A stretch of 62,618 bases of DNA. Origin: Bacillota bacterium (GTDB taxonomy: Bacteria > Bacillota > Clostridia > Caldicoprobacterales > DTU083). This document shows, piece by piece, positions 1,822 through 17,608 of the stretch (the first letter of the stretch is position 1; every line of letters starts with the position of its first letter). Location: the NCBI GenBank assembly GCA_029549985.1, contig JAKPIB010000032.1, positions 1 through 62,618 on the forward strand, written 5' to 3'. The notes beneath the pieces were generated by a model, which was not told where the DNA came from, made no database searches, and saw nothing but the letters and a program-made list of their open reading frames with translations. The position numbers were made by a program, and so were the translations under genes.

Positions 1822-2123
1822 ACTAAATAGTCTGAATAATCTGATTGATCAAAGACAATGACCGGGAAGTAGTAACGGCAAGCCTGGTCCGACAGAGAGC
1901 TTTCGGCAGGTGAGATGAAAGCAGGATACAGATGCCGCGAATTCATCCCGAGAGTCGCACACTCAAAGGCGGCTTATTTGAGCCTGCCGAGTAGGCTGTG
2001 TCGGAGTCCAACCGTTACAGTGGAGGAGCAATGTTGGTTGCTCGCTGAGGTTGCATTTTTGCAACGAAGACAAGGTGGTACCGCGATATATTCGCCCCTG
2101 TTATATTTAACAGGGGCGTTTTT
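1822..2123 (+). promoter_or_regulatory. T-box leader, specifier UUC (tRNA-Phe)
   Basis: T-box RNAs bind uncharged tRNA and switch between a terminator and an antiterminator. Seen: the conserved T-box sequence GGTGGTACCGCG near 2074-2085 and a terminator hairpin at 2093-2123. Stem I carries the AGTA element near 1871-1874, AGAGAG, and the GGTGAGA loop. Pairing CGGC (1876-1879) with GCCG (1934-1937), and GGGA (1864-1867) with TCCC (1946-1949), places the specifier-loop 3' strand as CGAA-UUC-A. The specifier is therefore UUC at 1942-1944. This predicts that the downstream transporter is made when charged tRNA-Phe is scarce. Confidence 0.92.
2093..2123 (+). terminator. T-box intrinsic terminator
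   Basis: The 11-bp stem CGCCCCTGTTA (2093-2103) pairs with TAACAGGGGCG (2108-2118) and is followed by TTTTT. It is the off-state structure of the leader and competes with the T-box antiterminator. Confidence 0.92.
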
Positions 2124-2188
2124 AATACCAATGTTTAATATTTAACTATATAAATCCATTATATCAAATGTATCAGGGAGGAATGGAA

Positions 2189-3169
2189 ATGAATAGGACG
2201 ATTAGGATTCTGATTGCTTTGCCTGTTGTATTGATCTTGATCTTAACTGCAGCCGCATGTACAGCGGGTGACCAAAAAACGACCATCGGAATAATCCAAT
2301 ATGGCGAACACCCTGCTCTGGACGCGGCCCGACAAGGCTTTATCGATTCACTTAAGGACGAAGGGTATGTTGATGGAGATAACATTAAGATCGATTATCA
2401 GAACGCCCAGTTCGATCAAAGCAACTTGTCTACTATCAGCGACCGCTTTGTAAGCAACAAGGTGGACCTGGTCCTGGCTATTGCCACTGACGCGGCCCAG
2501 GCCATAGCCGGCAAGACAAAGGATATCCCGATATTGGGCACAGCGATCACAGACTACGTAACTGCAGGCCTGGTCAAATCCAATGAAGCCCCTGGGGGCA
2601 ATGTAAGCGGGACGACAGACATGAATCCCATCAAGGAACAGATAGACTTGCTGCTGAAGCTTGTGCCTGATGCCGGTACTATCGGAGTGTTGTATACCTC
2701 TAGCGAGGACAATTCGGTCCTTCAAGCCAAGATCGCCAAGGAGATAATCGAAGCTAAGGGCCTTAAGTATGTTGAGGTCACCATCACCAATTCAAATGAG
2801 GTCCAGCAGGCCACACAGTCTATAGTGAGCATGTGCGATGCTATATATATACCGACTGACAATGTCTTTGCATCTGCTATGCCCCTCGTATACGGTGTGA
2901 CCAAAGAGTCAAAAACCCCGGTCATATGCGGTGAGGCCAATATGGTCAAAAACGGCGGACTGGCCACCCTTGGCATAGATTACTACAACCTGGGCTACCA
3001 GACGGGCAAGATGGCAGTAAAGGTGCTGAAGGGTGAGGCAAAGCCGGCTGATATGCCCATAGAGAGGCAGGAGAAGTTCGACTATGCTATCAATGGAGAA
3101 GTGGCCGAGGAAATAGGCGTAGAAATCCCTGATGACCTAAAGGAATATATCCTGAAAAACGATAACTGA
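2189..3169 (+). CDS. ABC transporter substrate-binding lipoprotein (TrpX/PF04392 type)
   Basis: Membrane-anchored binding protein, 326 aa. A lipoprotein signal peptide ends at C24 (TAAAC). The mature protein has the two-lobed periplasmic-binding-protein pattern of the ABC_sub_bind (PF04392) family, with TIGIIQYGEHPALD at the start of lobe 1. Start ATG 2189 was chosen because GGGAGG at 2176-2181 is 7 nt away; ATG 2168 lies upstream of this site and ATG 2183 is too close. First gene of a three-gene importer of the trpXYZ type. The Phe T-box implies phenylalanine or a related aromatic amino acid as ligand; that is inference, since the family as a whole has varied ligands. Confidence 0.88.
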   Translation: MNRTIRILIALPVVLILILTAAACTAGDQKTTIGIIQYGEHPALDAARQGFIDSLKDEGYVDGDNIKIDYQNAQFDQSNLSTISDRFVSNKVDLVLAIATDAAQAIAGKTKDIPILGTAITDYVTAGLVKSNEAPGGNVSGTTDMNPIKEQIDLLLKLVPDAGTIGVLYTSSEDNSVLQAKIAKEIIEAKGLKYVEVTITNSNEVQQATQSIVSMCDAIYIPTDNVFASAMPLVYGVTKESKTPVICGEANMVKNGGLATLGIDYYNLGYQTGKMAVKVLKGEAKPADMPIERQEKFDYAINGEVAEEIGVEIPDDLKEYILKNDN

Positions 3170-3190
3170 AGATTGGAATAGGTGGATGCA

Positions 3191-4102
3191 ATGGTGCAGA
3201 TCTTATCCGGAGCCGTTTCCCTTGGCCTCCTTTGGGCTGTTATGACAATTGGCGTATATATAACCTACCGCATACTCAATATAGCGGATCTGACGGTTGA
3301 AGGCAGCATCACCATGGGGGCGTCGATAGCGGCTATAACCATGTTAAATGGCACAGATCCATATGTTTCACTGTTTCTTGCGTTGCTGGGGGGCATGGCT
3401 GCCGGTCTGGCTACAGGGCTGCTGATCACCAGGTTCAAGATACCTCCGCTTTTGTCGGGCATTCTTACCATGATCGCCCTGTATTCCATAAATTTGAGGA
3501 TAATGGGGACATCGAACCTGTCATTGTTGAAGAAAAAGGACTTTTCTGAAATGAACACTGTGTATACACCCTTTGAGTCCCTGGGACTGGATAGGAATGA
3601 AGCAGCCATAGTTGTCGGCCTTCTGGTCGTAGCCACCCTGGTCGCGATCCTCTACTGGTTCTTCGGCACTGAAATAGGCTGCGCCATACGGGCGACCGGC
3701 AACAATCCGAATATGGTGCGGGCTCAGGGTATAAATACGGATACGACGGTCATCCTGGGCCTAGTCCTGAGCAACGGCCTGGTAGCTATAAGCGGGGGCT
3801 TGATTGCTCAAAGCCAGAGGTTTGCGGATATACAAATGGGCACAGGCTCAATAGTGATAGGGCTGGCTTCAGTGATCATAGGAGAAGTACTTTTTGGCAA
3901 GAACGGGTTTTTAAGAAGGCTAATATCGCTGGCGCTAGGTGCTGTGACCTACCGTGTGATCATTGCCCTGGTGCTTAAAATGGGCATGCCCGCCAATGAC
4001 CTTAAGCTCTTTACGGCGATAACCGTAGCTGCAGCTTTGGCGCTGCCTGTATTCAAAGAGTATCTGATCACACTTAAAAAATCCGCCAGGGCAGGTGAGT
4101 GA
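3191..4102 (+). CDS. ABC transporter permease (LIV-type, PF02653)
   Basis: Integral membrane permease, 303 aa, with about eight to nine hydrophobic segments and the BPD_transp_2 loop region around GTEIGCAIRATGNNPNMVRAQG. That loop normally contacts the ATPase. It partners the binding protein 21 bp upstream and the ATPase whose start follows its stop. ATG 3191 is preferred over GTG 3182 because AGGTGG (3180-3185) lies 5 nt before it. It likely imports the aromatic amino acid bound by the upstream lipoprotein. Confidence 0.88.
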   Translation: MVQILSGAVSLGLLWAVMTIGVYITYRILNIADLTVEGSITMGASIAAITMLNGTDPYVSLFLALLGGMAAGLATGLLITRFKIPPLLSGILTMIALYSINLRIMGTSNLSLLKKKDFSEMNTVYTPFESLGLDRNEAAIVVGLLVVATLVAILYWFFGTEIGCAIRATGNNPNMVRAQGINTDTTVILGLVLSNGLVAISGGLIAQSQRFADIQMGTGSIVIGLASVIIGEVLFGKNGFLRRLISLALGAVTYRVIIALVLKMGMPANDLKLFTAITVAAALALPVFKEYLITLKKSARAGE

Positions 4103-4104
4103 AC

Positions 4105-4899
4105 ATGCTGATAGTAAGCGGCTTGTACAAAACATTCAATGCAGGTACGGTAAACCAGAAGGAAGCCTTGAAAAATCTGAGCCTTCATGTTGAGAAGGGG
4201 GATTTCGTTACGGTCATAGGGGGCAATGGAGCAGGCAAGTCAACGCTCTTGAACTGCATTGCCGGTGTATATCCCCCTGACCAGGGCTGTATAATCATAG
4301 ACGGGACAAATGTGACCAGGCTGCCTGAGCACAAGCGCGCCCCAGTCATGGGCAGGGTTTTTCAGGACCCGATGATGGGTACCGCTTCAGACATGGGCAT
4401 AGAGGAAAACCTTGCCCTGGCATACCGCCGCGGGCAGCGCAGGGGTCTTAAGTGGGGTATCACGTCCAGGGAACGGGAGCTGTACAGAACCCTGCTCAAA
4501 ACACTTGACCTTGGGCTTGAGGACCGACTGAGCACCAAGGTAGGCCTGCTCTCCGGAGGCCAGCGGCAGGCCCTTACTCTCCTTATGGCTGTGCTCAAAA
4601 AGCCAAAGCTCCTGCTGCTTGACGAGCATACTGCTGCCCTTGACCCAAAAACTGCTGAAAAGGTGCTGGTCCTGACTGATCATCTGGTAAAGGAATATGA
4701 TTTGACCACACTTATGGTGACCCACAATATGCGGGATGCGATAAGGCACGGCAACCGCCTGATCATGATGCATGACGGGAGGATAATATTGGACATAAAG
4801 GGCGAGGAAAAGAAAAAGCTTACAGTAGAAGCCCTGATAAACAGGTTTGGAAGGGCCAGTGGTGAAGATTTCGCCTTTGACCGGGCCTTGCTTTCATAA
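4105..4899 (+). CDS. ABC transporter ATP-binding protein
   Basis: Cytoplasmic ATPase, 264 aa. Walker A GGNGAGKST is at residues 39-47, signature LSGGQRQ at 149-155, Walker B LLLLDEH near 169-175, and a switch histidine lies in VTHNM. The residue after the catalytic Glu is His (DEH) instead of the usual Pro (DEP); the catalytic Asp-Glu pair is intact. ATG 4105 follows AGGTGAG at good spacing; a GTG at 4099 overlaps the permease stop and is the alternative. Third gene of the T-box operon, drives uptake by the upstream permease. Confidence 0.9.
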   Translation: MLIVSGLYKTFNAGTVNQKEALKNLSLHVEKGDFVTVIGGNGAGKSTLLNCIAGVYPPDQGCIIIDGTNVTRLPEHKRAPVMGRVFQDPMMGTASDMGIEENLALAYRRGQRRGLKWGITSRERELYRTLLKTLDLGLEDRLSTKVGLLSGGQRQALTLLMAVLKKPKLLLLDEHTAALDPKTAEKVLVLTDHLVKEYDLTTLMVTHNMRDAIRHGNRLIMMHDGRIILDIKGEEKKKLTVEALINRFGRASGEDFAFDRALLS

Positions 4900-4913: not shown

Positions 4914-4942
4914 TTGACCTTATCATAAATTTGTACTATAAT
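4914..4942 (+). promoter_or_regulatory. Promoter of the c-di-AMP riboswitch transcript
   Basis: TTGACC at 4914-4919 and TATAAT at 4937-4942 with a 17-bp spacer. It lies 15 bp after the stop of the ABC ATPase, giving the next gene its own transcription unit. Confidence 0.88.
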
Positions 4943-4965
4943 AAATAAACATAAATTTAACAGAA

Positions 4966-5092
4966 AGCTGAATTTCTGCAAGCCACTCTGCGGCAGGATA
5001 CGGGGGAACCAATCATTTGGGGTGAATCCGGAGCGATCCGGTAGGGCTAATTACTTTCGGTCCGAATCCGTCAGCTAACCTCGGAAGCTTTG
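4966..5092 (+). promoter_or_regulatory. c-di-AMP riboswitch (ydaO-yuaA class)
   Basis: The conserved blocks of this RNA class appear in order: GGGGGAACCA near 5003, GGGGTGAATCC near 5019, GTAGGG near 5041, and GTCCGAATCCG followed by TCAGCTAACCTCGG near 5060-5084. They match my recollection of the Bacillus ydaO leader almost block for block. The class senses cyclic di-AMP and normally turns genes off when ligand is high. A terminator follows at 5123-5166 and the controlled gene starts at 5203. The exact 5' boundary is approximate. Confidence 0.92.
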
Positions 5093-5122
5093 AAGGTATA
5101 TCGAAAGGTATTTATGCCTTTG

Positions 5123-5166
5123 AAGCGATTTTCACGCAGACAGCGTGGCGATCGCTTTTATTTTTA
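5123..5166 (+). terminator. Riboswitch expression-platform terminator
   Basis: AAGCGAT (5123-5129) pairs with ATCGCTT (5151-5157), with an inner CACGC/GCGTG stem (5133-5137 and 5143-5147). A U-rich tail TTTTATTTTT follows. It lies between the c-di-AMP aptamer and the ribosome binding site, as expected for a transcription-attenuating off switch. Confidence 0.88.
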
Positions 5167-5202
5167 CTTACACATCTGAGTATAATCAAGGGAGGTATGC
5201 AT

Positions 5203-6588
5203 ATGAATGTAAAGTTCAACAAGAAAACCAAAATGATGGAGATCGAGTATCAGTTCAGGGAAGTGGACGAACCCAATCTGTTCAGAAACATTTATCCGTA
5301 CAATGAGGTGCCCAGGATAGTCTTCAACCACCGGGTAGTGCCCTTGAATATACCTGAGAAGCTGTATATAACCGACACCACTTTTCGTGACGGCCAGCAG
5401 GCCAGGTCTCCCTACACCGTTGATGAGATATGCGCCCTATTCGACTTGCTGCATAAGCTGGACAATGGCAGCGGGATCATCAGGCAGACGGAGTTTTTCC
5501 TGTATACGAAGGTGGACAGGGAGGCGGTGACCAAATGCATGGAAAAGGGTTATGACTATCCCGAGGTCACTGCATGGATAAGGGCCAAAAAGGAGGATTT
5601 CCAGCTTGTAAAGGATATGGGCATAAAAGAGACAGGCATCCTTGTATCCTGTTCTGACTACCATATATTCAAGAAGCTGAAAATGAACAGGTCCCAGGCA
5701 ATGAACACATATCTTGAAATAGTATCTGCCGCCCTTGAGGCCGGCATAATCCCAAGGTGCCATTTTGAAGATATAACCCGGGCTGATTTCTATGGCTTTG
5801 TGCTTCCCTTTGTGAACAAGCTGATGGAATTATCCTCGCAGGCCAAGATTCCGGTCAAGATCCGGGCATGTGATACCCTTGGCCTGGGAGTCAGCATACC
5901 TGGCGTTGCCCTGCCCCGAAGCGTGCCCCAGATCATCTACGGCCTGGTCAACTACGGCGATGTCCCCTCGGAGTGGCTTGAGTGGCATGGGCACAATGAC
6001 TTCTATAAAGCGGTATCCAATTCTACAGCAGCGTGGCTCTACGGAGCCTCTTCAGTAAACACATCCCTGCTTGGCATAGGCGAGAGGACCGGAAATACCC
6101 CCCTTGAAGCCATGGTTATCGAATACACCCAGCTCAGGGGCAGTGACGGCGGCATGAACCTAAAGGTGATAACCGAAATAGCCGAGTATTTTGAAAACGA
6201 GCTCAACTATGAGATACCGCCGAGGACACCCTTTACAGGACGGGCTTTCAATGCGACCAGGGCGGGCATACATGCTGACGGCCTCCTGAAGGACGAGGAG
6301 ATATACAATATATTCGATACCACCAAGCTGCTTGGCAGGCCGCCGGTAGTTGTGATAGACGCTCATTCGGGCTTAAGCGGGATCGCAGCCTGGCTCAACA
6401 GCTATTTTATGCTCAAGGGGGACAGGGCTATCGATAAGAGGGACGAAAGGATCGTAGAGATCAAGAAATGGATAGACGACGAATACGCCAACGGCAGGAC
6501 GACCGTCATCGGCGACTCCGAGATGGAGTGGCTTGCCAAAAGGTATTTCCCAGAGCTGCTATCATTAAGGCAGAGCAGGGTAGAGTAG
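5203..6588 (+). CDS. Re-citrate synthase / homocitrate-isopropylmalate synthase-like enzyme
   Basis: HMGL-like (PF00682) TIM-barrel aldolase of 461 aa. Seen: the N-terminal catalytic motif TDTTFRDGQQ (about residues 57-66), the metal-binding HGHND (about 262-266), and GIGERTGNTPLEAMV. Members of this clostridial subfamily are often annotated as isopropylmalate or homocitrate synthase, but the best-studied relatives are the Re-face citrate synthases of anaerobes such as Clostridium kluyveri. These condense acetyl-CoA with oxaloacetate to start citrate, 2-oxoglutarate and glutamate synthesis. No leuBCD genes are nearby, which favours this reading. ATG 5203 lies 7 nt after GGGAGG (5190-5195); ATG 5197 is too close. 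It is a single-gene unit behind a c-di-AMP riboswitch. Confidence 0.72.
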   Translation: MNVKFNKKTKMMEIEYQFREVDEPNLFRNIYPYNEVPRIVFNHRVVPLNIPEKLYITDTTFRDGQQARSPYTVDEICALFDLLHKLDNGSGIIRQTEFFLYTKVDREAVTKCMEKGYDYPEVTAWIRAKKEDFQLVKDMGIKETGILVSCSDYHIFKKLKMNRSQAMNTYLEIVSAALEAGIIPRCHFEDITRADFYGFVLPFVNKLMELSSQAKIPVKIRACDTLGLGVSIPGVALPRSVPQIIYGLVNYGDVPSEWLEWHGHNDFYKAVSNSTAAWLYGASSVNTSLLGIGERTGNTPLEAMVIEYTQLRGSDGGMNLKVITEIAEYFENELNYEIPPRTPFTGRAFNATRAGIHADGLLKDEEIYNIFDTTKLLGRPPVVVIDAHSGLSGIAAWLNSYFMLKGDRAIDKRDERIVEIKKWIDDEYANGRTTVIGDSEMEWLAKRYFPELLSLRQSRVE

Positions 6589-6598
6589 CAGATCATCT

Positions 6599-6630
6599 CG
6601 GCTTTGGACCGGATCCAAAGCCGTTTTTTT
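6599..6630 (+). terminator. Terminator after the citrate-synthase-like gene
   Basis: CGGCTTTGGA (6599-6608), loop CCGGA, TCCAAAGCCG (6614-6623), then seven T. A strong intrinsic terminator 10 bp after the stop codon. Confidence 0.95.
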
Positions 6631-6771: not shown

Positions 6772-7923
6772 ATGAAAAGGATTTGTCTGGTACTAGCATT
6801 CTTATTCGCAGCCATAGCTTTAGCAAGTTGTGGTTCGGGATCTGACAGTGATGTGATCAAGATCGGTGTCAACTATGAGCTTTCAAAAGATGTTGCAACC
6901 TATGGACAAAGCTCGGTAGAGGGTATAGAGCTGGCCATTGAGCAGATAAATGAAGCAGGTGGCGTAAATGGTAAGAAGATCAAGCTGATCAAGTATGATA
7001 ACGAATCCAACCCATCCATAGCTCTGACACTTACGACCCGGCTTATGACCCAGGACAAGGTCGTTGCCGTACTAGGGCCTGCTACATCAGGCGCATTCGG
7101 TTCAACCATACCTTTGGCGATGCAGCATAAGATACCGATAGCATCAGGCTCTGCTACAGCTGACGGGCTGCTGGTAGATGAGAATGGCAATGTCAAGGAA
7201 TATGCGTTTCGTATTTGCTTCAATGATTCCTATCAGGGTAGAGCAATGGCGAATTTTGCCCTGAACAACCTGAAAAAGACCAAGGCGGTCATAATCAAGG
7301 ATAACTCCAGCGATTACGGAAAAGGACTGGCTGAAAACTTTAAAAAGACATTTACAGACAACGGTGGTACAATAGTTGCTGAAGAGGCTTATGTGAAGAA
7401 TGAGGTCGACTTCAACGCTATCCTGACTGGTATAAAAGGCAAGGATTTTGATGTCATATTCATACCGGGATACTACAACGAAGCAGGACTGATAATCAAG
7501 CAGGCCCGTGCGATGGGCATAGATGTACCCATCCTCGGCGCCGATGGCTTTGATTCACCGGAGCTTGTCAACCTGGCCGGCGAAGATGCATTGAATGATG
7601 TATACTTCTCCAACCATTACTCACCCTTGGATGAGAGCCCTGTAGTGGTCGACTTCATAGAAAGCTTCAAGAAAAAGTACAATAAAGAACCTGACGCGTT
7701 CAACGCACTGGGTTATGACCTGGCCAACTTTGTGGTGGATGGTATAAAGAGGGCTGAAAGCCTTACCGGTAAGGCAGTCAAGGATGCGCTGGAAGCTACC
7801 AAGGACTTCGAAGGCGTGACCGGTTCCTTCAGCATCGATGAGAACCATGACCCTGTAAAAGCCCTGATAATAATCGAGCTTCAGAATGGCAAACAGGTGT
7901 CCACAATCAGAGCAGGGAACTAA
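6772..7923 (+). CDS. livJ: Branched-chain amino acid ABC transporter substrate-binding lipoprotein
   Basis: Lipoprotein, 383 aa, with a signal peptide ending at C20 (LASC). The mature part is a Peripla_BP_6 (LivJ-type) binding protein beginning IKIGVNYELS and containing the typical AVLGPATSGA segment of lobe 1. It captures leucine/isoleucine/valine or a related amino acid outside the membrane and hands it to LivH/LivM. ATG 6772 follows GGAGGG. It is first in the operon and is separated from livH by a perfect hairpin that may raise its mRNA level relative to the permease genes. Confidence 0.92.
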   Translation: MKRICLVLAFLFAAIALASCGSGSDSDVIKIGVNYELSKDVATYGQSSVEGIELAIEQINEAGGVNGKKIKLIKYDNESNPSIALTLTTRLMTQDKVVAVLGPATSGAFGSTIPLAMQHKIPIASGSATADGLLVDENGNVKEYAFRICFNDSYQGRAMANFALNNLKKTKAVIIKDNSSDYGKGLAENFKKTFTDNGGTIVAEEAYVKNEVDFNAILTGIKGKDFDVIFIPGYYNEAGLIIKQARAMGIDVPILGADGFDSPELVNLAGEDALNDVYFSNHYSPLDESPVVVDFIESFKKKYNKEPDAFNALGYDLANFVVDGIKRAESLTGKAVKDALEATKDFEGVTGSFSIDENHDPVKALIIIELQNGKQVSTIRAGN

Positions 7924-7978
7924 ATCATAGGTATAAATCCTAATCCATGCAAAATATTGAATCAAAAGCTTGTATTTG

Positions 7979-8007
7979 CATATAAGTGGGTTATACCCAC
8001 TTATATG
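7979..8007 (+). promoter_or_regulatory. Perfect intercistronic hairpin between livJ and livH
   Basis: CATATAAGTGGG (7979-7990) and CCCACTTATATG (7996-8007) form a 12-bp perfect stem with a TTATA loop. No clear U-tract follows, so it is better read as an mRNA stabiliser, processing site or partial attenuator than as a full terminator. Confidence 0.7.
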
Positions 8008-8082
8008 TATTTTGATATAAGATTTTGGACCGGAAAGTGAACTTATCTGGCATTAACAGGTGATTGAAGGAAGGGATGTTCC

Positions 8083-8970
8083 ATGGATCAGTTTGTTCAG
8101 CAGATCATAAACGGCATATCGCTGGGAAGCATATATGCGCTGATAGCTTTGGGCTATACGATGGTATACGGCATCATTAAGCTTATAAACTTTGCGCATT
8201 GCGATGTATACATGCTGGGGGCGTATATAGGTTATTTTTGCATGACCATTCTCCACCTGGACGTTATTCCTTCCCTGTTGATTGCCATGATGCTTTGCAC
8301 AGTTGTAGGTGTGCTTATAGAAAAAATAGCCTATAAACCCTTGAGGAACGCAACGAGGATAGCAGTGCTCATCACAGCGATCGGTGTATCATTGTTCCTG
8401 GAGTACGGAACCATGTATTTTGTGTCGGCACAGGTCAGGACCTTTCCTCCCCGGATTGTCAAGTCGATGTCTGCAGGGATAAAGCTTGGCAATATAAACG
8501 TAACCTACATGCAGCTTATGATAGTCGGAGTAACCGTACTGTTGATGGTCTTGCTGCAGTTCACGGTCAAGAAAACCAGGATAGGAAAGGCTATGAGGGC
8601 AGTATCACTGGATGTGGATGCTGCGGAGCTCATGGGTATAAATGTCGACACCACGATATCCTTCACCTTTGCCCTGGGCTCAGCCCTCGCCGGGGCAGCG
8701 GGAGTCCTGGTCGGATTATATTACAACTCGATCAACCCGCTTATGGGTATGCTGCCCGGGCTGAAGGCCTTTGTCGCTGCGGTCTTTGGCGGCATAGGCA
8801 TAATACCCGGTGCCATGATCGGTGGATATTTCATAGGGATGGTAGAAACCTTTGTTTCAGGCTATGGTTATTCGATGTACAGGGATGCTGTCGTATTTGC
8901 CATCCTGATCCTGATACTGATTATCAAGCCAGCCGGCTTGCTGGGCAGAAATGTTAGAGAGAAGGTGTGA
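8083..8970 (+). CDS. livH: Branched-chain amino acid ABC transporter permease LivH
   Basis: Integral membrane permease of the BPD_transp_2 family, 295 aa, about eight membrane segments. It opens with the characteristic LivH pattern QQIINGISLGSIYALIALGY. The cytoplasmic coupling loop around KTRIGKAMRAVSLD and the conserved GAAGVLVG helix are visible. It forms the channel with LivM. The gene follows livJ after a 159-bp gap holding a hairpin, and ends 3 bp before livM. Confidence 0.93.
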   Translation: MDQFVQQIINGISLGSIYALIALGYTMVYGIIKLINFAHCDVYMLGAYIGYFCMTILHLDVIPSLLIAMMLCTVVGVLIEKIAYKPLRNATRIAVLITAIGVSLFLEYGTMYFVSAQVRTFPPRIVKSMSAGIKLGNINVTYMQLMIVGVTVLLMVLLQFTVKKTRIGKAMRAVSLDVDAAELMGINVDTTISFTFALGSALAGAAGVLVGLYYNSINPLMGMLPGLKAFVAAVFGGIGIIPGAMIGGYFIGMVETFVSGYGYSMYRDAVVFAILILILIIKPAGLLGRNVREKV

Positions 8971-8973
8971 GCG

Positions 8974-10035
8974 ATGTCCAAGGGATTCAACAAAAAAGCC
9001 TTTATAAAAACCCTGGCCCTTTTGCTTGCCTTCTCTGTTGTCCAGCTACTGATCCGGTTCAATATAATCAGCTATTATTATCAGGATATCCTGGCAAGGG
9101 TCTGTATCAACATCATACTGGCTGTCAGCCTGAACCTGATCACGGGCTTCACTGGCCAGTTCTCACTGGGTCATGCAGGCTTTATGTCGATAGGCGCTTA
9201 TACCTGCGCCCTGATCATTGAGAGGGTGCCTACGGTCTATGGGTTCATCGCCGGAGTCATATTGGGCGCCCTGCTGGCAGCCTTTGCAGGTTTCCTGGTA
9301 GGCCTGCCCACTCTAAGGCTGAAGGGCGATTACCTGGCTATTGCGACACTGGGCTTGTCTGAAATAATCCGTATCTTATTTATAAACCTTGATTCCATAA
9401 CAAACGGTGCTGCCGGCCTTTATCTGCAGCGTCGATTTGTCAACTGGTTTTGGCTGTATCTGTTTACAGTCAGTACAGTCGTGCTTATATCCAACTTCGT
9501 AAGGTCTTCCCACGGCAGAGCCTGCATATCGATCCGGGAGGATGAGATAGCCGCGGAGGCGGTTGGGATCAATACTACAAAGTACAAGGTCATCGCCTTC
9601 ATGATAGGGTCCTTCTTCGCCGGGGTCGCAGGAGCGGTCTATGCATCGTACAACTATTTCATAGAGCCTAATCTGTTCAATTTCTCAAAGTCTATAGACA
9701 TACTTGTAGTAGTTGTCCTCGGAGGACTGGGCAGCATAAGCGGTTCTATCATGGCTGCAACGGTGCTTGAGTTGATATCGTCATTCCTCCAATCCGTTGC
9801 GGCAATACGTATGGTACTCTATGCAGTACTGCTTATACTGATCATGCTGTTCCGCCCCGGCGGCCTGATGGGGTCCAGGGAGCTTTCCGTGGCCATGCTT
9901 ACGGAGCTTCGCAAAAAGGCCATCGCTTGGCTTAAGGCGATGCCTGCCAGGGCTGTACATGCTGTCAGGTCTATTGCCAAAGGATCCGGAAAGCCCGGGG
10001 ACAAATCTGCCGGTAAGGGGAGGGTTGATGGATGA
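8974..10035 (+). CDS. livM: Branched-chain amino acid ABC transporter permease LivM
   Basis: Second permease subunit, 353 aa. The LivM signature stretch NLITGFTGQFSLGHAGF is seen near residues 53-69, and the coupling loop GRACISIREDEIAAEAVGIN near 184. A Lys/Arg/Ala-rich cytoplasmic tail (about residues 305-353) extends past the usual end of the family. It overlaps livG by 4 bp (ATGA-type arrangement), indicating translational coupling. Confidence 0.93.
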   Translation: MSKGFNKKAFIKTLALLLAFSVVQLLIRFNIISYYYQDILARVCINIILAVSLNLITGFTGQFSLGHAGFMSIGAYTCALIIERVPTVYGFIAGVILGALLAAFAGFLVGLPTLRLKGDYLAIATLGLSEIIRILFINLDSITNGAAGLYLQRRFVNWFWLYLFTVSTVVLISNFVRSSHGRACISIREDEIAAEAVGINTTKYKVIAFMIGSFFAGVAGAVYASYNYFIEPNLFNFSKSIDILVVVVLGGLGSISGSIMAATVLELISSFLQSVAAIRMVLYAVLLILIMLFRPGGLMGSRELSVAMLTELRKKAIAWLKAMPARAVHAVRSIAKGSGKPGDKSAGKGRVDG

Positions 10036-10817
10036 AGCTGCTGGAAGTAAAGAAACTTACAAAATCATTTGGTGGGTTGATGGCGGTATCCAATGTAAGC
10101 ATGGTGATAGACAAGGGAGAGCTTGTAGGCCTGATCGGCCCAAACGGTGCGGGTAAGACAACTGTGTTCAACCTGATAACCGGCATGTATTCGCCTTCGT
10201 CCGGGACCATAACCCTCTTTGACGGAGAACAGGGGAAGCCGATACAAGGCCAGAAACCAAATAAGATCTGTAATGCAGGTGTTGCCAGGACATTTCAGAA
10301 TATACGGTTATTCAGGGACCTGACAGTCCTGGATAATGTCCGCATCGCCATGCACAGGAGCGTAAAATACAGGCTGCTCTCATGCTTTGTGCATTCGCCC
10401 GGGTACCGGAGCGAGGAGCAAAGGATCATAGATGAAAGCATAGAGCTGTTGAAAATATTCAACCTGGATGGGAAGAAGGATGAACTGGCCAGGAATCTCC
10501 CCTATGGCGAGCAGCGTCATCTGGAGATCGCCAGGGCTCTTGCTTCCAGGCCTAAGCTGCTTCTGCTTGACGAGCCCGCTGCGGGCATGAATCCGGCTGA
10601 AACGGCCCAGTTGTCCGAGATCATCCGTAAGGTCCGCAAGCTGTTCAACCTGACTATCCTGCTTATAGAGCATGATATGTCCCTTGTTATGAAGATCTGT
10701 GAGCGCATATATGTGCTGGATTTTGGCTCTGTTATTGCCAACGGGTCGCCGGATGAGATCAAGTCCAATGAGCGGGTAATAACGGCCTATCTCGGGGAGG
10801 ATGCTATCGATGCTTGA
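10032..10817 (+). CDS. livG: Branched-chain amino acid ABC transporter ATP-binding protein LivG
   Basis: ATPase of 261 aa. Walker A GPNGAGKTT lies at about residues 36-44, a degenerate signature LPYGEQRHLEIARAL precedes Walker B LLLLDEPAAGMNP, and the switch His is in IEHDM. The LPYGEQ signature and AAGMNP after Walker B are typical of LivG. The start overlaps the livM stop; the purine-rich AAGGGGAGG lies just upstream. Confidence 0.93.
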   Translation: MKLLEVKKLTKSFGGLMAVSNVSMVIDKGELVGLIGPNGAGKTTVFNLITGMYSPSSGTITLFDGEQGKPIQGQKPNKICNAGVARTFQNIRLFRDLTVLDNVRIAMHRSVKYRLLSCFVHSPGYRSEEQRIIDESIELLKIFNLDGKKDELARNLPYGEQRHLEIARALASRPKLLLLDEPAAGMNPAETAQLSEIIRKVRKLFNLTILLIEHDMSLVMKICERIYVLDFGSVIANGSPDEIKSNERVITAYLGEDAIDA

Positions 10818-11514
10818 GATCAGGGAGCTTAATGTATATTTCGGGGTCATACATGCGTTAAAGGGCATATCGCTTACTGTCAACGATGGAGAGATCGTAA
10901 CACTGATAGGGGCCAACGGCGCTGGTAAAACAACGACTCTTAGAACGATATCCGGTTTGATAAAACCAAAATCCGGTACCATTTCATTGGATGGCGTTGA
11001 CATAACCAACCTGTCGGCAAAGGAAAGGGTAAAGCTCGGGATCTCCCATGTCCCTGAAGGAAGGCGGGTTTTCCCGGCTATGACGGTGCTGGAAAACCTG
11101 GAGCTGGGGGCATATCTTCGCAAGGATAAGCAGGGTATCGCAAGCGACCTGAAAAAAGTGTATGAGCACTTTCCTATATTATATGACAGGCGCAGGCAAT
11201 CCGCAGGTACCCTGTCCGGGGGAGAGCAGCAGATGCTCGCGATAGGCCGGGCCTTAATGAGCAGGCCCAGGATCCTTTTCCTCGATGAGCCTTCTATGGG
11301 TCTTGCACCGTTGCTGGTGCAGGAAATTTTTAATATAATAAAATCGATCAATGAATCCGGGACCACCATACTGCTCGTTGAACAGAATGCCAGCATGGCG
11401 CTGAAGACCGCAGACCGTGCCTATGTACTGGAGACCGGATCCATAGTCATATCCGGAAGCGGTGAAGAACTGGCTCAAAGCGAAGAAATCAAGAAAGCGT
11501 ACTTAGGGGGTTGA
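10810..11514 (+). CDS. livF: Branched-chain amino acid ABC transporter ATP-binding protein LivF
   Basis: ATPase of 234 aa. Walker A GANGAGKTT is at about residues 34-42, signature LSGGEQQ, and Walker B ILFLDEPSMGLAP, the last being typical of LivF. Start ATG 10810 is preferred because GGGGAGG (10794-10800) directly abuts ATG 10801 and is 9 nt from 10810. The gene overlaps livG by 8 bp. It pairs with LivG to power uptake. Confidence 0.93.
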   Translation: MLEIRELNVYFGVIHALKGISLTVNDGEIVTLIGANGAGKTTTLRTISGLIKPKSGTISLDGVDITNLSAKERVKLGISHVPEGRRVFPAMTVLENLELGAYLRKDKQGIASDLKKVYEHFPILYDRRRQSAGTLSGGEQQMLAIGRALMSRPRILFLDEPSMGLAPLLVQEIFNIIKSINESGTTILLVEQNASMALKTADRAYVLETGSIVISGSGEELAQSEEIKKAYLGG

Positions 11515-13208: not shown

Positions 13209-13244
13209 AAAGCAGCCCTAGACTGAGCGGGCTGTTGCTTTTTC
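13209..13244. terminator. Convergent terminator between galE and the activase-partner gene
   Basis: CAGCCC (13213-13218) pairs with GGGCTG (13229-13234), extended by AAAG/CTTT with a bulge, and followed by TTTTT on the plus strand. It overlaps the last codons of the minus-strand gene. Confidence 0.7.
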
Positions 13245-14507
13245 CATATTGAGCCTGGCTACTGACAGCATAAGCTTGATCCGGTTTTCCTGATTGATCC
13301 TTGTGGCACCTGAATCGTAATCTATGGCGACGATGTTGGCATTATTATGATTTTCTCTGATCTTTCTGATCATTCCCTTGCCGACTATATGGTTGGGAAG
13401 ACAGCCGAAGGGCTGGGTACAAATTATGTTTTCCACCCCGGAGTCTATGAGTTCCAGCATTTCAGCGGTAAGCAGCCAGCCTTCGCCCATTTTGTTGCCG
13501 CTGCCGACATAGCCCTTGATAAGGCTCTTTACATGTTCAAATGGGGAAGGCGCTATGAAAGAGGCTTCCTTTTTTACTGAGCTTATCAGCATGTCCTGAA
13601 GCCTTTCAAGGTATTTCTTCAGAGGCATGGCAAGGAATCCCTTCAGTCTGTTCATGCCGTACATTTTAGTATCAGTTATGGCATTGTCCACACAATACAG
13701 GACGAAATCCATCAGCCCGGGCACAACGACTTCTACGCCTTCACTCAGAAGGAAGCTTTCCAGGTTGTTGTTGCCCAGGGGCGAATACTTCATATATATT
13801 TCACCGACAACGCCAACCCTGATCTTATGAGTCTTTTTCACCGGTATCCGGGCAAAATCCGATACTATCGCGTCAAAATCCTTTCTGACACTTCTGTTAT
13901 TAAGTATAGTGCTGCCTCTAAGCTTTTGGCCGATCCTGTCAGTCCAATCAGCCACCAGCCTGTCGGTGTCCCCCTTGCTTATCTCATAAGGGCGGATCTG
14001 GTTGGCCAGGAGCATGAGCAGGTCACCGTAGAGGATCGCATATACTATCTGTATGATAAGTCCTATCGATAGCTTGAAACCCGGATTCTTCTCCATCCCG
14101 CCCACATTGAATGAGATCACCGGTATATGGCCCAATCCGTTCCGTTTAAGCGCTTTTCTCAGCAGATGTATATAGTTGGATGCCCGGCACCCGCCACCTG
14201 TCTGGGTAATTATGAGCGCAGTCCTGTTGATGTCATAGTCGCCTGATTTCAGTGCGTCCAGCAATTGGCCGATCACAAGGAGGGCCGGATAGCAGGTGTC
14301 ATTGTGCACACTTTGCAGCCCCTCGTCTACGATGCGGGGATGCTCTGTTTCAAGCAGGACTGCCTTGTAGCCGTGACGCAGAAGGATGTTTTTGAATAGC
14401 CTGAAGTGAATGGGCAGCATCATGGGCATCAGTATCGTATATTCCTTTTTCATCTCTTTGGTGAAGAGGATCCTGCCGTCCTTATCATACTGCAAATTTC
14501 TTTTCAT
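13218..14507 (-). CDS. Acyl-CoA dehydratase activase-related protein (HgdB/DUF2229-like partner)
   Basis: 429 aa, related to the 2-hydroxyglutaryl-CoA dehydratase D-component fold. Cysteine-bearing segments are visible: NDTCYPALL, TGGGCRASNY and CTQPFGCLPNH, compatible with Fe-S cluster binding. ATG 14507 is chosen because GGGAGG lies 8 nt upstream. The first 23 bp overlap the end of the 984-aa activase gene in another frame. In many clostridia these two parts are one long protein of about 1400 residues; here they are separate. The substrate is unknown for this branch; the family catalyses or activates radical dehydration of 2-hydroxyacyl-CoA. Confidence 0.82.
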   Translation of the reverse strand: MKRNLQYDKDGRILFTKEMKKEYTILMPMMLPIHFRLFKNILLRHGYKAVLLETEHPRIVDEGLQSVHNDTCYPALLVIGQLLDALKSGDYDINRTALIITQTGGGCRASNYIHLLRKALKRNGLGHIPVISFNVGGMEKNPGFKLSIGLIIQIVYAILYGDLLMLLANQIRPYEISKGDTDRLVADWTDRIGQKLRGSTILNNRSVRKDFDAIVSDFARIPVKKTHKIRVGVVGEIYMKYSPLGNNNLESFLLSEGVEVVVPGLMDFVLYCVDNAITDTKMYGMNRLKGFLAMPLKKYLERLQDMLISSVKKEASFIAPSPFEHVKSLIKGYVGSGNKMGEGWLLTAEMLELIDSGVENIICTQPFGCLPNHIVGKGMIRKIRENHNNANIVAIDYDSGATRINQENRIKLMLSVARLNMEKATARSV

Positions 14508-17439
14508 GCCTGGTACCTCCCGAGAGCTCGACTGCGGCCATAAGGCTCCTGAGTCTGATCTTTGCAGCTCCCAGATTGCTGATCTCATCGATTTTTATCT
14601 GTGTATACAGTTTGGATCCGCTCTCAAGTATGTATCTCATTTCATCGGACGTGATGGCATCCAGCCCGCATCCGAAGGATACCAGTTGGACCGGATATAC
14701 GTTGTCCTGCAATGTTGCGAACTTGGCAGCGGCATACAGCCTGCTGTGGAAAGCCCATTGGTTGAGTACGTTGGTCCTGAACTTGTTTATATAATGGCTT
14801 ACACAATCCTCTGAAAGGACCACAAGGCCGAGGGAGTTGGCCAGCTTGTCTATTCCATGGTTGATCTCAGGGTCGATATGGTAAGGTCTGCCGGACAGGA
14901 GTATCACCAGGCGGCCGTTGGCTTTGGCAAACTCAAGGGCTTTACGGCCGTATTCCTCGATATCGGCACGGTAGGCCCTATAAGCCTGATAGGCCTTGTC
15001 TACGGCATGCTCTACCGTTTTTCTGGACACGTTGAACCGGTCTCCAAAAAAGTCACACAGGCTGTGGGTGAAGTTTTTCCTGTTGCCGGGGTTGAAGTAG
15101 GGATACATGAACCTGATGCCATCCAAAGCCTTGATGTTGGCCTTGAGCAGCTCCGGATAGTATGACACGACCGGACAATTGTAATGGTTGTCTCCAAGAT
15201 GTTCATCAAAATTGTATGGCATGCAGGGATAAAAGATCGTATCGATCCCCATTTCCAGCAGCTTCAGTATATGGCCGTGCATAAGCTTGGCTGGATAGCA
15301 GATCGTATCCGAAGGGATCGTATGCTGACCTAGTGAATATATTTCCCTTGTGGATATACCGGAAACAACCACTTCAAACCCCATATGGGTCAGCAGGGCA
15401 TGCCAGAAGGGCAGGTTTTCATACATGTTTAGCCCCAGAGGGATGCCGATCCTGCCCAGGGGGCCGGGCACGGCCTCAAGCTGCTGCAGCTTTTCGAGCT
15501 TGTATCCATATGCATTGGGCAGCGAGCTCATGCTGCCTTTGCCAAGCGGCCTTTCGCACCGGTTTCCTGAGATGAACCTGCCGCTGCCACCAAATGTATT
15601 GATGGTCAGCTTGCATTTGTTGGTGCAGCCTTCGCAGACAGCAGCCCTTGAGGTGTGGGTGAAGTAGTTCAGCTCTTCATAAGAGAGCATGCCGGACCTT
15701 TCTGTGTTAAGGGTGGCGGCATATAGGGCTGCCCCGAAAGCTCCCATGAGTCCGGCTATGTCGGGCCTTGTGACATGCTTTCCTGTTTCCAGCTCAAAGC
15801 TGCGGAGTATGGCATCGTTCATAAAAGTCCCGCCCTGGACGACGATATGGCTGCCCAGCTCGGCCGGGTTGTTTATGCGGATGACCTTGTACAGGGCGTT
15901 TTTCACTACGCTGATTGCCAGCCCGGCTGCTATGTCGTCAATGCCTGAACCGTCCTTTTGTGCCTGCTTGATAGAAGAATTCATGAAGACCGTGCAGCGG
16001 GAACCCAGGTTGACAGGGTGCCTGGCAAACAGGGCCATATCAGCAAACTCCTCGATACTGTAACCAAGCGTATGGGCACAGGTTTCCATAAAGGAGCCGC
16101 AGCCTGATGAGCAGGCTTCATTCAACATGATGGAATCAATGGCGTTGTTTCTGACACGGAAGCATTTTATGTCCTGGCCTCCGATATCAAGTATAAAATC
16201 CACCAGAGGGTCAAAATAACGCGCGGCAAAATAGTGGGCGACAGTCTCCACAAGGCTGCTGTCAAGGCGGAAGGCATTCTTAATAAGCTCCTCGCCATAG
16301 CCCGTGGAAGCAGCGGCCCTGATTTTTATCCTCCTGCCGCACATTTCATATATCTTTTTAAGCTGGTCCTTTACCAGTTGCACCGGCTCGCCCAGGTTGG
16401 ATTTATAATAGGAATAAAGTATCCCGCCGTCAGGCGATGCCAATACCAGCTTCAGGGTAGTGGAACCGGCGTCTATGCCCAGGTATGCATCGCCTTCATA
16501 TGTACCGATATCTATCGCTTTTGCGCTGTGGACCCTGTGTCTTTCAAGGAACTCTGCATATTCAGCCCTGGAGGAGAACAGCGGGGGAAGGGAGAGGACC
16601 GTGTTTTTTGCCAAAGCTGCCTTGTTTATACACGACATGATATCGGTATATCCCATCGGCTTTAAGCTGCCGCTGTAAAGCGCAGCGCCCAAAGCCACAT
16701 AAAATTCGGAATTGTCGGGGAATATGGCATCTTCATCGCCAAGTCCGAGGGTTGCCCTAAAGCGCTGGCCAAGCCCTTTCTGAAAGGTCAGGGGACCGCC
16801 CAGGAATACGACGCGGCCTTTTATCTCCCTGCCCTGGGCAAGGCCGGTCACTGTCTGGTCGACTACAGCCTGATATATGCTGGCTGCTATATCAGCCTTA
16901 TTGGCTCCCTGATTCAAAAGGGGTTGGATGTCGGACTTGGCAAAGACACCGCACCTTGAGGCTATGCTGTAGATAGTGGCATGCTCGAGGCTGAGCTTGT
17001 CAAGCTCGGCCAGGGAAACGCCAAGCAAGGCAGCCATCTGGTCTATGAATGCTCCTGTACCGCCGGCGCAGCTGCCGTTCATCCTTTCCTCGGCCCCGCC
17101 GGTGAGAAACAGTATTTTTGCATCTTCTCCGCCAAGCTCTATTACGGCATCTATATCATCATGGTAATACTCAACGGCGATCTTTGTCGCAAAGACTTCC
17201 TGGACAAATTCAAGGCCTGCTGATTTTGCCAAGCCCAGGCCTGCAGATCCGGTGACGGCTATATTTGTACTGCTGCCGGCCAGCAGGTCCTCAAGCTCAG
17301 CCAGCAGCTTTGCCGCACGCTCCCTTACTTTGGCATAGTGCCTGTCGTAGTATTTATATACTATATTATTATCATCATCCAGTACTGCTATCTTTATAGT
17401 GGTCGACCCCACGTCTATCCCAAGACGGTAATGCTGCAT
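14485..17439 (-). CDS. 2-hydroxyacyl-CoA dehydratase activase, tandem BadF/BadG domains plus DUF2229
   Basis: 984 aa. Two ASKHA-type activase domains (about residues 3-260 and 318-575) each start with a phosphate-binding LGID(V/A)GSTT motif. Each carries the Cys loops of HgdC-type activases, NGSCAGGTGAF with SRCGVF, and NEACSSGCGSF with SRCTVF, which normally hold a [4Fe-4S] cluster between subunits. A CEGCTNKC motif near residue 602 starts the DUF2229 part. ATP hydrolysis would drive one-electron transfer to a dehydratase. ATG 17439 is preferred since AGGAG lies 8 nt upstream; ATG 17460 has no ribosome binding site. It forms an operon with the overlapping downstream gene. Confidence 0.9.
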   Translation of the reverse strand: MQHYRLGIDVGSTTIKIAVLDDDNNIVYKYYDRHYAKVRERAAKLLAELEDLLAGSSTNIAVTGSAGLGLAKSAGLEFVQEVFATKIAVEYYHDDIDAVIELGGEDAKILFLTGGAEERMNGSCAGGTGAFIDQMAALLGVSLAELDKLSLEHATIYSIASRCGVFAKSDIQPLLNQGANKADIAASIYQAVVDQTVTGLAQGREIKGRVVFLGGPLTFQKGLGQRFRATLGLGDEDAIFPDNSEFYVALGAALYSGSLKPMGYTDIMSCINKAALAKNTVLSLPPLFSSRAEYAEFLERHRVHSAKAIDIGTYEGDAYLGIDAGSTTLKLVLASPDGGILYSYYKSNLGEPVQLVKDQLKKIYEMCGRRIKIRAAASTGYGEELIKNAFRLDSSLVETVAHYFAARYFDPLVDFILDIGGQDIKCFRVRNNAIDSIMLNEACSSGCGSFMETCAHTLGYSIEEFADMALFARHPVNLGSRCTVFMNSSIKQAQKDGSGIDDIAAGLAISVVKNALYKVIRINNPAELGSHIVVQGGTFMNDAILRSFELETGKHVTRPDIAGLMGAFGAALYAATLNTERSGMLSYEELNYFTHTSRAAVCEGCTNKCKLTINTFGGSGRFISGNRCERPLGKGSMSSLPNAYGYKLEKLQQLEAVPGPLGRIGIPLGLNMYENLPFWHALLTHMGFEVVVSGISTREIYSLGQHTIPSDTICYPAKLMHGHILKLLEMGIDTIFYPCMPYNFDEHLGDNHYNCPVVSYYPELLKANIKALDGIRFMYPYFNPGNRKNFTHSLCDFFGDRFNVSRKTVEHAVDKAYQAYRAYRADIEEYGRKALEFAKANGRLVILLSGRPYHIDPEINHGIDKLANSLGLVVLSEDCVSHYINKFRTNVLNQWAFHSRLYAAAKFATLQDNVYPVQLVSFGCGLDAITSDEMRYILESGSKLYTQIKIDEISNLGAAKIRLRSLMAAVELSGGTRHEKKFAV

Positions 17440-17608
17440 AGGTATATCTCCTATATGCATATATTTGTCCTATTGATTATATAATACATATACTTCATAT
17501 TCAACTTATGGTACTATATACTGTAGACCTGCAATGTTATATACACAGCAGTTAGACGATCATATATACTAGGATTTTAAGCTATCATATATAAAGGAGG
17601 CTTGCGGT

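Follow-up and report, generated by a model that had tools for sequence, protein, structure and literature searches.

In Listeria, c-di-AMP inhibits pyruvate carboxylase, acting on the protein at the step that supplies oxaloacetate and so limiting flow into citrate, 2-oxoglutarate and glutamate. At the level of RNA, control of ablA by c-di-AMP and of eam by Na+ is already published: in Dehalobacter sp. CF the ablA gene, which encodes lysine 2,3-aminomutase, lies behind a c-di-AMP riboswitch (ydaO/yuaA class, RF00379) in tandem with a Na+ riboswitch, and the Na+-I riboswitch is known on eam, the gene for glutamate 2,3-aminomutase (PMC9337991). Beta-glutamate is a compatible solute (PMC1224877). 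The clostridial Re-citrate synthases, of the C. kluyveri type, are exemplified by that of C. thermocellum, which shares 61% identity with the verified enzyme of C. kluyveri and the gene for which adjoins aconitase (PMC6115520).

The locus described here, by computation alone, lies in a window of 62,618 nucleotides, the whole stretch of DNA that was analysed, from an uncultured, anaerobic member of the clostridial order Caldicoprobacterales, and consists of a c-di-AMP riboswitch ahead of a gene of the Re-citrate synthase family. With a second such riboswitch on eam in the same genome, it resembles the Dehalobacter case in placing an aminomutase gene for a beta-amino-acid osmolyte under what would be an OFF switch for c-di-AMP, and differs from it in that the osmolyte there is beta-lysine and the switch stands in tandem with a Na+ riboswitch, whereas here the product would be beta-glutamate and the citrate synthase feeding its synthesis would also be controlled. 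As with the Na+-I riboswitch on eam, beta-glutamate synthesis would be placed under an osmotic signal, although by another ligand and another RNA, and the Na+-I unit is without a reported citrate synthase. The encoded enzyme belongs to the same family as the known clostridial Re-citrate synthases, but unlike their operons the gene is uncoupled from aconitase and isocitrate dehydrogenase and stands under c-di-AMP riboswitches alone or together with eam. The flow that c-di-AMP limits in Listeria would be limited here as well, at transcription rather than on a protein. The literature searched describes no citrate synthase under a c-di-AMP riboswitch; as far as that search reached, the original impression that the pairing had not previously been described stands.

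The leader RNA and its transcription unit

The leader begins with a sigma-70-type promoter on the forward strand (TTGACC-17-TATAAT, 4914-4942) that agrees with the consensus at 11 of 12 positions and was the top of six candidates across the region, where shuffled sequences yield 3.1 of any quality. Downstream of it, at 4956-5104 on the same strand, is a match to the c-di-AMP riboswitch aptamer RF00379 that spans the whole model (1-134 of 134). It scores 93.2 bits (E = 1.1e-20), the gathering threshold being 38, and is one of just two above-threshold Rfam matches in the 62.6-kb window. Helix P1 of the aptamer has its 3' strand at about 5086-5091, and an antiterminator hairpin of 14 bp (5087-5126, -15.4 kcal/mol, arms GCTTTGAAGGTATA and TATGCCTTTGAAGC) begins inside this strand, so that it competes with P1. 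The far arm of the antiterminator in turn overlaps the 5' arm of an intrinsic terminator hairpin (5122-5158, -20.0 kcal/mol), the U-rich tail of which runs to about 5169, and the two folds are mutually exclusive. A generic terminator scan of the region detected the terminator at the end of the gene and not the hairpin at 5122-5158, because the stem of the latter is interrupted. Promoter, riboswitch and expression-platform terminator had all been predicted from inspection of the letters, and each is borne out.

Comparison of homologous leaders showed that both antiterminator arms are retained in most of them, that most fold alike, and that related leaders have terminators equivalent to 5122-5158. 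In the leader of genome G047 the tenth antiterminator pair is A-U in place of G-C, both sides having changed. As judged from the predicted folds, the layout is that of an OFF switch, and control in the cell would be expected to run in that direction. The genome has a single PF02457 match (G000:C50:80779, 164 bits), which establishes domain presence only, and given this putative DAC-domain protein the organism could make c-di-AMP itself.

The gene that follows occupies 5197-6588 on the forward strand as an open reading frame of 463 aa, and its predicted membership of PF00682 was confirmed at 114 bits. Translation more likely starts at the ATG at 5203, giving 461 aa, than at 5197, because a Shine-Dalgarno sequence, GGGAGG (5190-5195), stands 7 nt ahead of the former and because orthologues begin MNVKFN. 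A forward-strand intrinsic terminator with a 10-bp stem and a T7 tail lies just past the gene at 6599-6623, which makes this a one-gene transcription unit.

The surroundings of the unit include several genes of transport. At 1849-4899 a T-box leader (RF00230, 106 bits) stands ahead of genes for an ABC transporter composed of a PF04392 binding protein, a permease and an ATPase; such an arrangement is known for amino-acid uptake genes, for example trpXYZ, and it is retained in genomes G014 and G015. Immediately after the Re-citrate synthase unit, at 6772-11514, is a branched-chain-amino-acid-type ABC transporter with a binding protein, two permeases and two ATPases, apparently a separate unit. 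Further on, two adjacent reverse-strand open reading frames (13218-17460; 456 and 991 aa) resemble, by sequence only, 2-hydroxyacyl-CoA dehydratase activase or CoA-enzyme-activase type proteins.

Family and relatives of the encoded enzyme

The best curated models for the protein are homocitrate and isopropylmalate synthases, and Re-citrate synthases are often annotated under those names (PMC12016533), both of which would fit an enzyme that is a homocitrate, citramalate or isopropylmalate synthase and a riboswitch that tunes an amino-acid pathway. Against this reading, which we consider improbable, all of the scores fall far under their cut-offs, at 157 bits against 463, and the same is true of every NCBIfam equivalog for the LeuA, NifV and CimA families (for LeuA, TIGR00973, 100.6 bits against 598.7). 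The Pfam search found no LeuA C-terminal regulatory domain in the window protein, which has 463 aa compared with about 510 aa for LeuA. LeuA proteins from the same order share only about 29% identity with the window protein and form a separate branch of the tree, and their scores with the LeuA model exceed 730 bits. Members of the window protein's own family adjoin the genes expected of a citrate pathway, aconitase being found near 41 of 129 family loci and isocitrate dehydrogenase near 31 of them, always downstream and on the same strand, counts that describe the family loci and not the window gene itself. Curated cut-offs, tree and gene neighbourhood together speak against LeuA, homocitrate synthase and citramalate synthase as assignments, which were rejected, and they uphold Re-citrate synthase as the best fit, as originally proposed.

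Orthologues of the window protein (E below 1e-90) are carried by 83 of the 391 genomes of the class, and it is 60-67% identical to many members of the family found in operons of Re-citrate synthase, aconitase and isocitrate dehydrogenase. Among the matches listed it is 63% identical to a protein of the Clostridium ragsdalei group, and it is through C. ragsdalei, by tree position and published context, that the link to the verified C. kluyveri enzyme runs; for the present enzyme the Re-face, oxygen-sensitive activity of that type is a prediction. A maximum-likelihood tree places the proteins linked to the riboswitch in a supported clade. Its sister is the Clostridium group that includes C. ragsdalei rather than the other members of the window genome's order, among them Caldicoprobacter oshimai, whose protein is identical to that of G002:C2. 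The gene tree thus disagrees with the taxonomy, which points to horizontal transfer of the Re-citrate synthase gene.

A second citrate synthase, eam and the distribution of the riboswitch

On other contigs the genome carries a gene for a Si-type citrate synthase, along with single genes for aconitase and isocitrate dehydrogenase. The original view, in which the riboswitch would restrain the committed step of citrate synthesis, is therefore not supported in that form: the Re-type enzyme is ruled out as the sole citrate synthase of the cell, and with the Si-type enzyme present the riboswitch governs a second, additional one. A gene resembling Si-type citrate synthase was also seen in G047, at L221:372-2121 (G047:C61), where it ends about 280 nt before a c-di-AMP riboswitch that precedes a gene for an SH3-domain-like secreted protein.

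Across the whole genome, which is 97% complete, there are exactly two RF00379 matches, one before the Re-citrate synthase gene and the other on contig C29 upstream of a gene for a radical-SAM enzyme, eam, so that the two genes share one class of control. For the C29 enzyme the best curated model by far is that of glutamate 2,3-aminomutase (NCBIfam TIGR04368), with a score of 628 bits where the cut-off is 650; the three eam proteins scored gave 620-631 bits, just short of this value. At the two positions held by Asp293 and Asp330 in lysine 2,3-aminomutase, which we take to bind the side-chain amine, the window genome's protein has Lys342 and Asn379. Lysine and asparagine occupy both positions in 30 of 30 eam-type proteins examined, and the AblA-type proteins L059 and L075, themselves behind c-di-AMP riboswitches, keep aspartate at both; the residues at these positions fit a glutamate enzyme. 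Those two riboswitches, in G295 and G333 respectively, are ahead of lysine 2,3-aminomutase-type genes as in the published Dehalobacter case. In the window genome a gene for a 549-aa membrane protein (L087:8797-10446, G000:C29) starts 17 nt past eam; the protein resembles two fused ABC sugar permease domains and has no Pfam match, and its gene is not beside eam in G034, G169 or G064.

In several relatives the two genes are joined. The order riboswitch, eam, Re-citrate synthase is intact in G072, G099, G149 and G415 (family f9) and in G040 (f15), with 18-123 nt between eam and the synthase gene, and in G370 the same arrangement is split across two contigs; with G370 included, the riboswitch-led operon occurs in six genomes of two families other than that of the window genome. 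In G014, G015 and G047 the riboswitch precedes Re-citrate synthase alone. The survey of riboswitch-preceded family genes that had been proposed with the prediction thus returned the association in ten genomes and four families, and since the carriers comprise one subgroup plus G040, they do not amount to ten independent events. Among eam orthologues of at least 65% identity in the survey of the 391 genomes of the class, 15 of 21 have the riboswitch upstream and 6 of 21 are without it.

A different purpose for the switch has some claim to consideration. Glutamate is the main counter-ion of potassium, and the riboswitch on Re-citrate synthase may set the glutamate pool itself, with beta-glutamate incidental, in what would be an RNA-level parallel of the inhibition of pyruvate carboxylase by c-di-AMP. 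The window genome, G014, G015 and G047 do have the synthase gene by itself downstream of the riboswitch; G014, the closest genome (assembly 91% complete), has no clear eam, its best match being 46%, and G015 and G047 have solely distant eam genes (52-56%) without a riboswitch. We nevertheless regard this possibility as rather unlikely, because eam carries the one further c-di-AMP riboswitch in the window genome and because the two genes lie together in a single riboswitch-led operon in two other families. The same two observations place the pairing within the c-di-AMP and osmolyte theme, and it is beta-glutamate synthesis that we favour as the purpose of the switch.

The pairing is confined to one subgroup, and the idea that it is general to Re-citrate synthase was ruled out. 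Six relatives at 69-78% identity among the matches listed (L110-L115) have no riboswitch in the DNA examined, the other Re-citrate synthase genes that could be checked in the surveyed genomes have none nearby, and among the matches listed none of 80 named loci has one, the riboswitch model as applied to these loci having been verified to recover known members. Two of the six relatives, L110 and L111, come from MAGs labelled Actinomycetota and encode synthases 77-78% identical to that of the window, a placement that reflects either horizontal transfer or misbinned contigs. The close relatives that lack the RNA might be taken to mean that the riboswitch of the window is degenerate or an accidental neighbour with no control over the gene, but a full-length 93-bit match, an intact promoter and competing hairpins, in an arrangement common to ten genomes and four families, leave this with hardly any probability.

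A proposed route from citrate to beta-glutamate under c-di-AMP

The reading that we consider well favoured, on the strength of the genes and leaders compared, is that a c-di-AMP OFF switch controls a second, dedicated Re-type citrate synthase that feeds beta-glutamate synthesis. When turgor and potassium are sufficient and c-di-AMP is high, the ligand would bind the aptamer and stabilise helix P1, the 3' strand of which would then be unavailable to the antiterminator, so that the terminator would fold and the synthase gene would be off; osmotic stress would lower c-di-AMP, allowing the antiterminator to form and the gene to be transcribed. The enzyme, acting as a Re-citrate synthase, would provide the citrate from which 2-oxoglutarate and glutamate are made, and glutamate 2,3-aminomutase, encoded behind the other c-di-AMP riboswitch, would convert glutamate to beta-glutamate, which would be expected to accumulate. 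The route would thus lead from citrate through 2-oxoglutarate and glutamate to beta-glutamate, and the two genes would make up one c-di-AMP regulon that draws an osmolyte from central carbon. With somewhat less assurance, we think it probable that Re-citrate synthase was recruited together with eam as a mobile riboswitch-led cassette, which would explain the presence of two citrate synthases in some clostridia, and that in the window genome the regulon under c-di-AMP riboswitches consists of this pathway alone.

If this reading is true, riboswitch control by c-di-AMP would extend beyond transporters and single osmolyte enzymes to a supplying step within central carbon metabolism, and two genes scattered in the genome would be united through the same RNA switch. 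One citrate synthase would serve growth and the other the supply of an osmolyte, and central metabolism in these bacteria would be tied to osmotic control.
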